This document shows, piece by piece, positions 218 through 46,117 of a stretch of 64,000 nucleotides of DNA. Origin of the DNA: Myxococcales bacterium (GTDB lineage Bacteria > Myxococcota_A > UBA9160 > UBA4427); NCBI GenBank assembly GCA_022563535.1, contig JADFNE010000009.1, positions 1 through 64,000 of the forward strand. The letters run 5' to 3'. The position numbers and the translations under genes are program-made. Numbering within the stretch: position 1 is the first letter of the stretch; each line of letters opens with the position of its first letter. The notes below the pieces were generated by a model. It ran no database searches. It had not been told where the DNA came from and worked only from the letters and a program-made list of their open reading frames with translations.

Positions 218-1591
218 ATGGACGTCACCACGAAAGAACTCGCTGTCGTGATTCTAGCCGCCGGTCAGGGTATGCGAATGAAGTCGCGTCGGGCCAAGGT
301 GCTGCACGAGCTGTGTGGGCGGTCGATGTTGGGCCACGTGGTCACGAGTGCCGAGGCACTTTCCCCCGCACATCTGATCGTTGTCGTGGGTTACGACGGC
401 GCGCAGGTAGAAGCGGAGTTCGAGGGCCGTGTCAAAATCGTCTACCAGACCGAGCAGAAGGGTACGGGGCACGCGGTCATGCAGGCACTGCCTCTGATCG
501 AGGGATTCGCGGGTGATGTACTGATTCTGTACGGCGACACGCCACTGTTGACTCCCGAAACTTTCCAGCGGATGGGTCGGCTCAAGCGCGACACCGGGGC
601 TGATCTTCTCATGCTCACGGCAGTGGGTCCGATTCCGGGTCGCGTCGTGAGGGATGCTTCGGGAAAGGTAGAGCGCATCGTCGAACAACAGGATGCCAGC
701 CCGACTGAACTGGAGATCGAAGAGCGGAACACCGGTGTTTACATGATGAGCGCAGAGCTGGTGCGCGAGGGAATCGCAAATCTCAAAGACGACAATCAAC
801 AAAGAGAGCTGTACCTGACCGATATTGTCGGCCACGCTGTACAGAACGGACTTCGCGTCGAGGCGCTATTGCTGGAAGACGGCGATGAATGTCTCGGGAT
901 CAATACGCGAGCAGATCTGGCGACAGCTTCGGAGGTCATGCGTCGTCGGATCAATTTGCGACACATGGAAAGAGGGGTGAGCCTCAGCGACCCCAGCCAG
1001 GTCTACATCGACGTCGACGTCGAAATTGGGCGCGACTGCGTGATCGAGCCGGGTTGCGTCATTCAGGGCAACTCTGTGTTGGGCGAAGGAGTCCATCTCA
1101 AGAGCAATTGTGTGATTGAATCGAGTCGACTCGACGACGATGTCGTGTTGGGTCCAATGGCGCACCTGAGACCCGACTGCCACTTGATGGAAGGCGTCAA
1201 GATTGGGAACTTCGTAGAGATCAAGAACGCGACCCTGGGCGAAGGTACAAAGTCGGCACACCTCACCTATATCGGCGACGCCACGGTCGGTGCCGGAGTG
1301 AACTTTGGCTGCGGCACCATCGTGGTGAACTACGACGGCGTCAGCAAACACCGCTCGACGGTAGAAGACGGCGCGTTCATCGGTTGCAACTCCAATTTGC
1401 TCTCGCCGGTCTCGGTGGGGAAGAACGCCTTTGTCGCGGCCGGTACGACGGTGAGCAAAGACGTGCCCGCAGACGCCCTGGCGGTCGCGCGAGTGAAGCA
1501 AACGAACATCGAAGGTTGGGTCGCGAAGCGCGAAGGGCGTGAAACAAAGAGCGCAAAGAAGGACAAGCGCAGTTCAAAGAAAGACAAGTAG
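218..1591 (+). CDS. glmU: Bifunctional GlmU: GlcNAc-1-P uridyltransferase / GlcN-1-P acetyltransferase
   Basis: Cytosolic enzyme making UDP-GlcNAc for peptidoglycan and LPS: it acetylates glucosamine-1-P, then transfers UMP to it. The N-terminal nucleotidyltransferase domain shows the LAAGQGMRM loop near residues 13-21 and YGDTPLL near the metal site. The C-terminal half has hexapeptide repeats of a left-handed beta helix, with LRPDCHL, KIGNFVEIKN and GCGTIVVNYDG typical of the acetyltransferase. It has 457 residues, normal for the family, and ends in a Lys/Arg-rich tail. I chose the ATG at 218 because GGAAG lies five bases upstream and the protein then starts just before the nucleotide loop; an in-frame ATG at 176 is the alternative. 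glmS follows 57 bases downstream, so the two probably form a pathway operon. Confidence 0.96.
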   Translation: MDVTTKELAVVILAAGQGMRMKSRRAKVLHELCGRSMLGHVVTSAEALSPAHLIVVVGYDGAQVEAEFEGRVKIVYQTEQKGTGHAVMQALPLIEGFAGDVLILYGDTPLLTPETFQRMGRLKRDTGADLLMLTAVGPIPGRVVRDASGKVERIVEQQDASPTELEIEERNTGVYMMSAELVREGIANLKDDNQQRELYLTDIVGHAVQNGLRVEALLLEDGDECLGINTRADLATASEVMRRRINLRHMERGVSLSDPSQVYIDVDVEIGRDCVIEPGCVIQGNSVLGEGVHLKSNCVIESSRLDDDVVLGPMAHLRPDCHLMEGVKIGNFVEIKNATLGEGTKSAHLTYIGDATVGAGVNFGCGTIVVNYDGVSKHRSTVEDGAFIGCNSNLLSPVSVGKNAFVAAGTTVSKDVPADALAVARVKQTNIEGWVAKREGRETKSAKKDKRSSKKDK

Positions 1592-1648
1592 AGCGGCTGG
1601 GACAGGAAGCTTGCGGAGCCGTGGCTCTGCTCGGCGGGAGCGATAAAC

Positions 1649-3484
1649 ATGTCAGGAATCGTCGGATACATCGGTCGTGAGGGAAGTGCTTCGGACGTCT
1701 TGATCGACGGTCTGCGGCGCCTCGAATACCGAGGCTACGACTCGGCGGGGGTTGCGATCTTCGACGGCGACATCATCGACGTGCGACGCGCCGAAGGGAA
1801 GTTGACGAACCTCGAGGGCGAAATCCGCAGCGCGCCGATCGACGGTCGCGTGGGGATCGGCCACACACGCTGGGCGACCCACGGCAAACCATCCACGCGC
1901 AACGCCCATCCGCATCGGGCTGGATCGGTCGTGATCGTACACAATGGCATCATCGAAAATTATCGCGAGCTGCGCAGCGAACTCGAAGCCGCGGGTCGTG
2001 TCATTGATTCCGATACCGATACCGAGTTGATCGCGCACTGCATCGAGCAGTCCGTCGACGCGGGAAACGACCTGCTTACCGCGGTGCGCGAAGCCTGTGG
2101 CCGGTTGATCGGGGCCTACGCCCTGGCGGCGTTGTGTGAGAAGGATCCGACCACGATTGTTGCCGCGAAAAACGGCGGAAGTCCAATGATCCTCGGATTG
2201 GGAGAGAAGCAGTCTTTCCTGGCGAGTGACATCCCGGCGATTCTTCCGTACACGCGCCGGATGGCGTTCATCGAAGACGGCGAGTTTGCCGTACTGCGAG
2301 AGGATGGAATCGAAATCGTCTCGAGTACCGGCGAGCCGAGTCCGTGCGAGTTCAAGACTGTGCAGTGGGATCCGATCTCCGCTGAAAAGGGCGGTTACGA
2401 CCGCTTCATGCAGAAGGAAATCTTTGAACAACCCCGCTCGATCACCGACACGATCGGCACTCGCATCGACGAAGCCAGTCTCGAGATTGATCTCGACGGG
2501 ATCCAGCTCGACTCCGACTGGGTAAAAAATCTCAGCCGCATCACCCTCGTCGCCTGCGGTACGGCTTCCTACGCGTGCATGATCGGCAAGTACATGATCG
2601 AGCACATCGCAAAGATTCCGTGCGAAGTCGATCTCGCGAGCGAGTTTCGCTATCGCAATCCGATTCTCGATGACAAATGCATCGTAATGCTGGTCTCGCA
2701 GTCCGGTGAAACCGCTGACACCCTGGCGGCCCTGCGCGAAGGCAAGCGACAGGGTGCGCGCACCATTTGTATTACGAACACCCGCGATTCGACCATCGCC
2801 CGGGAGAGCGACGACGTTTTATATACCCATGCCGGACCGGAGATCGGGGTGGCGTCGACCAAGTGCTTTACCGCCCAGATCGTCGCCCTTTATCTGTTTG
2901 CCGTGAAGTTCGCGATGATTCGCGAGCTGCTGAGCCGCGAAGAGAAAGAAAAATTCCTCCACGATCTCATCAGCCTGCCGCGCGTGGTTCAAGAAACCCT
3001 GGCAATGGATGAGCGGATCGAGCGACTCGCCCATAAATATTTCAAGCACTCAGATTTTCTGTTTCTCGGCCGTGGGATCATGTTCCCCATTGCACTCGAG
3101 GGCGCGCTCAAGCTCAAGGAAATTTCCTACATCCACGCGGAAGCCTATGCCGCTGGAGAGATGAAGCACGGGCCGATCGCTTTGATTGACGAGAACATGC
3201 CGGTGATGGTGATCGCCAATCAGGGTCCGCTGTACGATAAGTTGATCTCGAATCTCGAACAAGTGCGCGCCCGGGACGGTCAGGTGATCGCGGTTGCGAC
3301 CGAAGGGGACGAACACATCGCCTCCAAGGTCAACGACGTCATCTACGTTCCCGATCTCGGCGAGTTTCTCACTTCGGTGATCGTGTCGATTCCGATGCAG
3401 CTTTTCGCGTACCACGTGGCTACTCGCAAGGGAACCGATGTCGACCAGCCGCGAAATCTCGCCAAGAGCGTAACCGTCGAGTAG
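1649..3484 (+). CDS. glmS: Glucosamine-6-phosphate synthase (glutamine:fructose-6-P amidotransferase) with Ser in place of the catalytic Cys
   Basis: Makes glucosamine-6-P from fructose-6-P and an amino group from glutamine, the first committed step of amino-sugar synthesis. At 611 residues it has the normal two-part layout: an N-terminal class II glutaminase domain (GIVGYIG, LEYRGYDSAG, HTRWATHGKP, HNGIIENY, SDTDTE) and two SIS isomerase domains (VACGTASYA, VSQSGETADT, LGRGIMFPIALEGALKLKEISY) with the usual C-terminal AKSVTVE. The oddity is the start: codons ATG TCA GGA give Met-Ser-Gly, where the family has Met-Cys-Gly and Cys1 is the glutamine-hydrolysing nucleophile. GGGAG about seven bases upstream supports this start. 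All other glutaminase residues I can recognise are kept. Whether Ser can work as nucleophile, or ammonia is used directly, cannot be read from the sequence. Confidence 0.95.
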   Translation: MSGIVGYIGREGSASDVLIDGLRRLEYRGYDSAGVAIFDGDIIDVRRAEGKLTNLEGEIRSAPIDGRVGIGHTRWATHGKPSTRNAHPHRAGSVVIVHNGIIENYRELRSELEAAGRVIDSDTDTELIAHCIEQSVDAGNDLLTAVREACGRLIGAYALAALCEKDPTTIVAAKNGGSPMILGLGEKQSFLASDIPAILPYTRRMAFIEDGEFAVLREDGIEIVSSTGEPSPCEFKTVQWDPISAEKGGYDRFMQKEIFEQPRSITDTIGTRIDEASLEIDLDGIQLDSDWVKNLSRITLVACGTASYACMIGKYMIEHIAKIPCEVDLASEFRYRNPILDDKCIVMLVSQSGETADTLAALREGKRQGARTICITNTRDSTIARESDDVLYTHAGPEIGVASTKCFTAQIVALYLFAVKFAMIRELLSREEKEKFLHDLISLPRVVQETLAMDERIERLAHKYFKHSDFLFLGRGIMFPIALEGALKLKEISYIHAEAYAAGEMKHGPIALIDENMPVMVIANQGPLYDKLISNLEQVRARDGQVIAVATEGDEHIASKVNDVIYVPDLGEFLTSVIVSIPMQLFAYHVATRKGTDVDQPRNLAKSVTVE

Positions 3485-44651: not shown

Positions 44652-46117
44652 TGGACCCCGCAAGCGCCGGCCTCGCCGAACAGCGCGACTTGCTCGCCCA
44701 GGGAAGTTGCTCCTCCCTCGAACTCGTCGATTCAGCCATCGAACGAAGCGAAAGGTTCGATGCCCGGTTGTCTGCCGTAGTCGCACTGCGGGCCGATGCG
44801 GCGCGACGGGAAGCTGGCGAATCCGACGCGCGCCGAATTGCCGGCGAGTTGCGTTCGCCCCTCGATGGCCTGCCAATTTTGCTGAAGGACAACATGGTTC
44901 AGCGGGGCGAACTCACGACCTGCGCCTCGCGCATTCTCGAGGGATATGTCTCCCCGTTCGACTCGACGGTCGTCGAACGTCTTCAAGCTGCGGGCGCCAT
45001 CTTGCTCGGCCGCACGAACATGGACGAGTTCGCCATGGGATCGTCGACGGAAAATTCGATCTACGGTCCCGCGCGAAACCCGTGGGACCTCGAGCGAACC
45101 TGCGGAGGTTCTTCGGGAGGTTCGGCAGCAGCCGTGGCCAGTGGCATTGTGGCGGGGGCGCTCGGCAGCGATACCGGCGGATCGATTCGCCAGCCCGCCG
45201 GTTTTTGTGGTGTCACCGGCATCAAGCCGACGTATGGACGCGTATCGCGTTGGGGGCTCGTGGCATTTGCCTCCAGCCTGGATCAAATTGGCTGCTTTAC
45301 ACGATCTGCGGCGGACGCTGCGCTGTTGCTGCAGATCATCGCCGGACACGACGCCAGAGACTCGACATCGATTCCCGAACCCGTGCCCGATTACAGCGCC
45401 GGGCTCACCGGTGAACTCGCGGGGCTCACGGTCGGACTGCCGAAGGAGTACTTCGAAACCTCGGGCGGCGATCCCGGGGTTCTCGACTGCGTTCGCAGCG
45501 GAGTCGCCGAACTCGAGGCCGCCGGGGCGAAGGTCGTCGAAGTCACGCTTCCCCACACGCGCTACGGGGTGTCGGCCTACTACCTGATCGCAACCGCGGA
45601 AGCGTCGAGCAACCTCGCGCGCTTCGACGGTGCACGCTACGGCCGCAGGGCCGAGGGCGTGACCGAACTCAATGAAATGTACGAACGCTCGCGCTCTGAA
45701 GGCTTCGGAGCTGAAGTCAAGCGCCGCATCATGCTTGGCACATATGTGCTCTCTGCTGGCTACTTCGACGCCTACTACAAAAAGGCGCAGCAAGTGAGAA
45801 CACTGTTGCGCGATGACTTCGACGCCGCGTTTTCGCAATGCGACGTGATCGCCACTCCGACCAGTCCAGAGATCGCGTTTCCCCTTGGCGCGAAGAGCCA
45901 TGATCCGGTTGGCATGTTTCTATCCGACATCTATACGGTTTCGGCCAATCTCGCCGGGATTCCGGGGATCTCGGTTCCCTGCGGCGCCAAAGCCGGGATG
46001 CCTGTCGGTCTACAACTGCTCGGACGTGTGCTCGACGAACAGACCCTGCTGAGGGTTGCAGACGGTTTCCAGCGTCGAACCGATTATCACCTGGCGCGAC
46101 CGAAGGATTTCGCATGA
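44651..46117 (+). CDS. gatA: Asp/Glu-tRNA amidotransferase subunit A
   Basis: Amidase subunit of 488 residues that releases ammonia from glutamine. The Ser-cisSer-Lys triad is visible: LPILLKDNM (Lys), GGSSGGSAAAV (cis-Ser) and GSDTGGSIRQPA (nucleophile Ser). Further typical stretches are GRTNMDEFAMGSSTENS, GFCGVTGIKPTYGRVSRWGL and PTSPEIAFPLG. Normal length. The gene is coupled on both sides by start/stop overlap, so the three subunits are made together. Confidence 0.96.
   Translation: MDPASAGLAEQRDLLAQGSCSSLELVDSAIERSERFDARLSAVVALRADAARREAGESDARRIAGELRSPLDGLPILLKDNMVQRGELTTCASRILEGYVSPFDSTVVERLQAAGAILLGRTNMDEFAMGSSTENSIYGPARNPWDLERTCGGSSGGSAAAVASGIVAGALGSDTGGSIRQPAGFCGVTGIKPTYGRVSRWGLVAFASSLDQIGCFTRSAADAALLLQIIAGHDARDSTSIPEPVPDYSAGLTGELAGLTVGLPKEYFETSGGDPGVLDCVRSGVAELEAAGAKVVEVTLPHTRYGVSAYYLIATAEASSNLARFDGARYGRRAEGVTELNEMYERSRSEGFGAEVKRRIMLGTYVLSAGYFDAYYKKAQQVRTLLRDDFDAAFSQCDVIATPTSPEIAFPLGAKSHDPVGMFLSDIYTVSANLAGIPGISVPCGAKAGMPVGLQLLGRVLDEQTLLRVADGFQRRTDYHLARPKDFA

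Follow-up and report, generated by a model that had tools for sequence, protein, structure and literature searches.

A GlmS with serine in place of the catalytic N-terminal cysteine in a Myxococcales genome, and serine-bearing GlmS relatives in other bacteria

The window (the whole 64,000-nucleotide stretch of DNA analyzed) carries a glmU gene (positions 218-1591, forward strand) directly 5' of glmS (1649-3484, forward strand), an open reading frame of 611 residues encoding a glutamine--fructose-6-phosphate transaminase (isomerizing), an essential enzyme that makes a sugar for the cell wall. A Shine-Dalgarno-like GGGAG (1636-1640, forward strand) lies 8 nt 5' of the glmS ATG. The gene begins ATG TCA GGA (1649-1657), Met-Ser-Gly, and the TCA codon (1652-1654) thus places serine at the Ntn nucleophile position, where relatives have the catalytic cysteine encoded by TGC or TGT. 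A preliminary description of this DNA had claimed the exchange, and it withstood examination of the gene start. Such a check is important because mis-called starts are known to hide the cysteine of some archaeal purF genes (PMC3261824). The glmU stop (1589-1591) is separated from the glmS ATG by 19 in-frame codons, none of them ATG, GTG, or TTG, and hence a mis-called start cannot account for the missing cysteine. An earlier start that would include a Cys codon located a few residues 5' was rejected, as that codon is unreachable from any recognized start. A rare-codon artefact was likewise discarded, because TCA is an ordinary codon in the window (87 of 16,185 codons).

The remainder of the enzyme is intact, as had been described and as alignment now bears out. 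The glutaminase motifs HTRWATHG (1862-1885, containing R73, W74, T76, and H77 in E. coli GlmS numbering), HNGIIEN (1940-1960, N98 and G99), and SDTDTE (2009-2026, D123) are all present on the forward strand, and with R26 every residue of the glutamine pocket is kept. The tandem SIS (isomerase) domains (2369-3481, forward strand; Pfam SIS, 189.5 bits) have the equivalents of E488, H504, and K603 together with the C-terminal DQPRNLAKSVTVE tail. Close to the glutaminase motifs, PSERN has become PSTRN (1889-1903, residues 81-85), Thr replacing a Glu that most relatives retain; the same site is variable in some other GlmS proteins. A compensating new cysteine was considered and rejected: the window-specific or near-specific cysteines are at residues 233 and 374, and neither is placed near the pocket.

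In profile searches the protein matched TIGR01135 over residues 3-611 with 799.9 bits (cut-off 418.05), and its Pfam domains are GATase_6/7 (GATase II) plus two SIS domains. It is ~46% identical to the E. coli GlmS of solved structure, and its AF2 model (pLDDT 86) gave Foldseek matches to full-length E. coli GlmS (2j6h/1jxa). The gene order glmU-glmS-membrane protein-UvrD/PcrA-type helicase (names given by sequence inspection) is common to the congeners, and this collinearity and the tree agree in making the gene orthologous to congener glmS. Judged by sequence, the protein is a GlmS family member by orthology, which passed every family test run except that for the Cys nucleophile. With Ser (TCA) at codon 2 where the Cys-type class II amidotransferases (MEROPS C44) have an N-terminal catalytic cysteine, it is not assignable to that group. 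It has the N-terminal Ser on an Ntn fold (codon 2 and the AF2/Foldseek matches) that characterizes the Ser-type Ntn hydrolases, the initial Met presumably being removed. The ammonia-only aminosugar synthases (NagB/GlmD-like) are marked by loss of the glutaminase domain or glutamine pocket; here the domain is complete and the pocket intact.

Alignment with close relatives, which the preliminary description had proposed, gave a clear contrast. All three congeners, with GlmS proteins 86-88% identical, have Cys at codon 2, and 26 of 27 family matches have TGC or TGT there, the window being the sole exception. Among 379 genomes from the phylum to which the window belongs, a scan for T[ACT]N at codon 2 matched only the window, whereas allowing codons beginning with A, C, or G gave one match in the same 379 genomes, an AGC (Ser) codon in a diverged GlmS paralog. 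This GlmS-like paralog (L189, genome G465) reads LEHRVYD in place of LEYRGYD. In the tree the window is a single Ser tip within a Cys group. By these comparisons the Cys to Ser change is confined to the window's species and followed its split from the congeners.

As the window evidence is one assembly of one species, it must be asked whether TCA reflects a mistake in the consensus or assembly, or else a variant of a minority strain in a population that has Cys. We consider this unlikely. The uniform Cys of the congeners favors an artefact, as does the nature of the source, one draft assembly in 147 contigs, with glmS 1.6 kb from where its contig begins. However, TGC and TGT cannot be converted to TCA by one base change, as the preliminary description had correctly stated, and an error would have to affect two bases of the same codon and by chance yield Ser, the only alternative seen elsewhere. 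Moreover, the ~25 kb around glmS is frame-clean against the congeners, no frame-split conserved genes being seen across that synteny, and Ser2-GlmS is conserved over many genomes in other phyla. Two-base codon differences are common at such distance (40 of 611 codons when the window is compared with its nearest congener). Because TCA is unreachable from TGC/TGT by one change, the Ser codon is probably old enough for a silent change to have occurred, and its distance of two steps from any Cys codon fits a Ser that did not arise very recently.

Selection on the gene was estimated by the simple Nei-Gojobori method. The glutaminase domain of the window compared with that of the nearest congener gave dN 0.077 and dS 1.64 (dN/dS about 0.05) and the isomerase domain gave dN 0.086 and dS 1.93, ratios that are rough owing to dS values near saturation. 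From these rates both domains appear to be under equally strong purifying selection, the glutaminase domain evolving no faster than the rest. At columns conserved at >=90% the window GlmS has six unique changes, spread over both domains, versus zero to one in the congeners, an excess that could be a hint of relaxed constraint.

A second intact glmS, the possibility of which had been raised at the outset, did not turn up when the whole assembly (4.63 Mb in 147 contigs, 97.9% complete) was searched in all six frames. The remaining genome matches to the GlmS query were PurF and two AsnB proteins, each with its normal Cys. No nagB match above the family cut-off was found in the genome, nor did the GlmS query retrieve any SIS protein resembling NagB-II. 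The only matches to the nagB profile were two, and both were discarded: that on contig C38 is 6-phosphogluconolactonase, and that on C35, considered as a bypass, is a frame-broken NagB-like stretch. The C35 sequence (L112, about 45435-45731 in G000) is split between two frames near the contig end and is a pseudogene or a local assembly error. Given no other GlmS, no intact nagB match, and no NagB-II, the window GlmS is probably needed.

These data bear on the notion that the window encodes a recently inactivated GlmS, with glucosamine-6-phosphate obtained by salvage, by a reversed NagB-type deaminase, or from neighbours. The excess of unique changes at conserved columns would fit, as would the NagB-like sequence near a contig end, frame-broken though it is in the assembly, and a sole GlmS in the course of erosion is exemplified by genome G046 (below). 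Nevertheless, the intact isomerase residues, reading frame, and synteny, the dN/dS of about 0.05 in both domains, and the lack of a nagB match above the family cut-off or of a NagB-II make inactivation quite improbable.

Other bacteria also have Ser2-GlmS proteins. GTDB r220 was scanned for the pattern M-S(TCN)-GIVGY[IVMTA]G, which gave 13 matches, an undercount since GIIGY forms and AGY codons fall outside the pattern. Twelve are true GlmS homologues; one Paenibacillus match (L042) was rejected because it is not a GlmS. The largest set came from a Terriglobia order, where a GlmS match is present in 39 of 40 genomes and a Ser family (L076, L077, L081, and L133-L158) in most. All 29 aligned members begin MSGI[IV]GY, with all four TCN codons used for Ser2, and the catalytic-pocket residues are kept (H86 is Gln in one member). 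The isomerase site is altered (E488K, S347T, and mostly C300A), and many of these genomes have a second GlmS, ~45% identical, whose start, where read, encodes Cys. As the Ser family is without E488, conservation there need not imply GlmS activity; the paralog perhaps catalyzes a different sugar reaction or acts as a glutamine sensor.

Five related Nitrospinota species have Ser2 GlmS proteins (L075, L078, L079, L080, and L113), with TCA in all, and three of the five have, in addition, a complete GlmS of a different type with Cys. In the one Nitrospinota genome examined for neighbours (L194, G052 contig) the Ser GlmS adjoins a gene encoding only a GlmU-type uridyltransferase. In Bacillota, Ser2-GlmS was found in three MAGs with TCT and in one with AGC, and when any codon was allowed at position 2 in one Bacillota order, 44 Cys, 4 Ser (TCT, AGC), and no other residues were seen. 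The AGC case (G630:C133:35908-35933), a GlmS-type start from the same order as the TCT cases, suggests a separate origin. In genome G050 the Ser-GlmS is the only GlmS found. Two Bryobacterales genomes differ in character. G049 is a lone Ser species among Cys relatives, as in the window. G046, a complete chromosome, has a Ser2 GlmS (L085) with eroded glutaminase motifs plus K603R and K503R in the isomerase site; no other GlmS was found there, a NagB-II-like SIS protein (L095) is present, and its GlmS is possibly in the course of replacement.

The glutamine pocket is kept in the Terriglobia and Nitrospinota Ser clades and in two of three Bacillota cases, and the glutaminase-domain dN/dS in Ser clades is 0.035-0.10, similar to that of the isomerase domain. 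In a tree built by a quick method, and with some long branches, well-supported branches force at least three gains of Ser and parsimony gives five; Ser2-GlmS has therefore arisen in at least three lineages and probably in five or more. Where other codons were allowed, Ser was the only substitute for Cys seen. Only the L189 and G630 cases came from searches not aimed at Ser, and with just two such cases the argument for Ser as the sole replacement of Cys is suggestive rather than statistical.

The preliminary description had left two options, Ser as the nucleophile or reliance on free ammonia. The first has gained support, in that the pocket is kept in Ser clades and Ser is the sole alternative seen; the second is now less favored. 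Our leading, still tentative, reading, which we put somewhat short of an even chance, is that the window GlmS is a real, working Ser-type glutaminase that is probably slow. Met aminopeptidase would expose Ser1, whose free alpha-amino group would in turn activate the hydroxyl of the same residue, the arrangement known from Ser-type Ntn hydrolases. Ser1 would then hydrolyze glutamine in the unchanged pocket, probably more slowly than would Cys, and the isomerase domain, itself intact, would receive the ammonia through the channel and form glucosamine-6-phosphate. Members of the Ntn hydrolase superfamily have Ser, Thr, or Cys nucleophiles and swaps can leave partial activity; the proteasome Thr-to-Ser change costs about an order of magnitude in activity (PMC9140057). 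In the GlmS glutaminase site Cys1 is the sole catalytic residue named (PMC9272926). Against a Ser nucleophile, PurF can no longer use glutamine once its Cys is replaced by Ser, and the equivalent change deprives AsnB of its function (PMC3261824). In the open-access papers searched, no description of a naturally occurring Ser-GlmS was seen. To our knowledge, no natural class II amidotransferase with a Ser nucleophile has a measured activity.

The same PurF substitution keeps ammonia-dependent activity, and the crenarchaeal PurF' proteins that lack Cys are proposed to be ammonia-dependent (PMC3261824). By analogy, the glutaminase of the window protein might be dead, with the isomerase domain using free ammonia and the glutaminase domain kept for its structural role in the channel. 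Some Ser-GlmS proteins (L084 and L085) do have eroded glutaminase pockets, and such decay is what free-ammonia use should produce. In the window, however, every glutamine-specific residue is preserved and selectively constrained, and the literature presents GlmS as the subfamily member that cannot accept ammonia (PMC9272926). We therefore regard this alternative as unlikely. The retained pockets of the old Ser clades fit glutamine binding, by slow Ser hydrolysis or by glutamine sensing, better than free-ammonia use, and we extend that argument by analogy to the window GlmS as one that would favor the Ser-type glutaminase. Since the same Ser swap arose several times elsewhere, its recurrence in bacteria suggests that it may be a working alternative and not an error. 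Somewhat more doubtful is the broader proposal that repeated natural exchange of the GlmS nucleophile has produced serine-type class II glutamine amidotransferases, to which the sole GlmS of the window, the Terriglobia paralog family, and the Nitrospinota and Bacillota clades would belong.

Cys1 of GlmS, regarded as indispensable, is the target of the glutamine-analogue inhibitors anticapsin and FMDP (PMC9272926). If the Ser enzyme works, the class II amidotransferase nucleophile is exchangeable and altered sensitivity to thiol-reactive inhibitors is predicted. If it does not hydrolyze glutamine, then either a GlmS uses free ammonia, contrary to the description of the family, or wall synthesis can do without this GlmS. 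Independent enzymes for the same question are available in the Terriglobia, Nitrospinota, and Bacillota clades.

Among known systems the closest is canonical GlmS/GFAT (TIGR01135; E. coli GlmS, PDB 1JXA and 2J6H), which has the same two domains, pocket, isomerase residues, tail, and glmU neighbour, but Cys1 as nucleophile where the window has Ser. The E. coli GlmS C1A protein (PDB 3OOJ) is also without the Cys nucleophile, although it is a laboratory mutant made for structures whereas the window sequence is natural, and Ala cannot act as a nucleophile whereas Ser can. Natural class II amidotransferase homologues without Cys are crenarchaeal PurF' and Mlab_0150, a PurF copy of Methanocorpusculum, the latter having Ser (PMC3261824). 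Each exists in addition to a Cys PurF, in contrast to the window protein, which is the only GlmS in its genome. The Ser-type Ntn hydrolases of the penicillin G acylase group share with the window an N-terminal Ser on the Ntn fold (PMC9140057), but they belong to another sequence family, expose the Ser by autoproteolysis, and act on other substrates. Finally, the Terriglobia Ser2-GlmS paralogs have the GlmS architecture, Ser2, and full glutamine pocket of the window protein, and differ from it in the Cys GlmS beside them, in their E488K, S347T, and mostly C300A changes, and in their separate origin.
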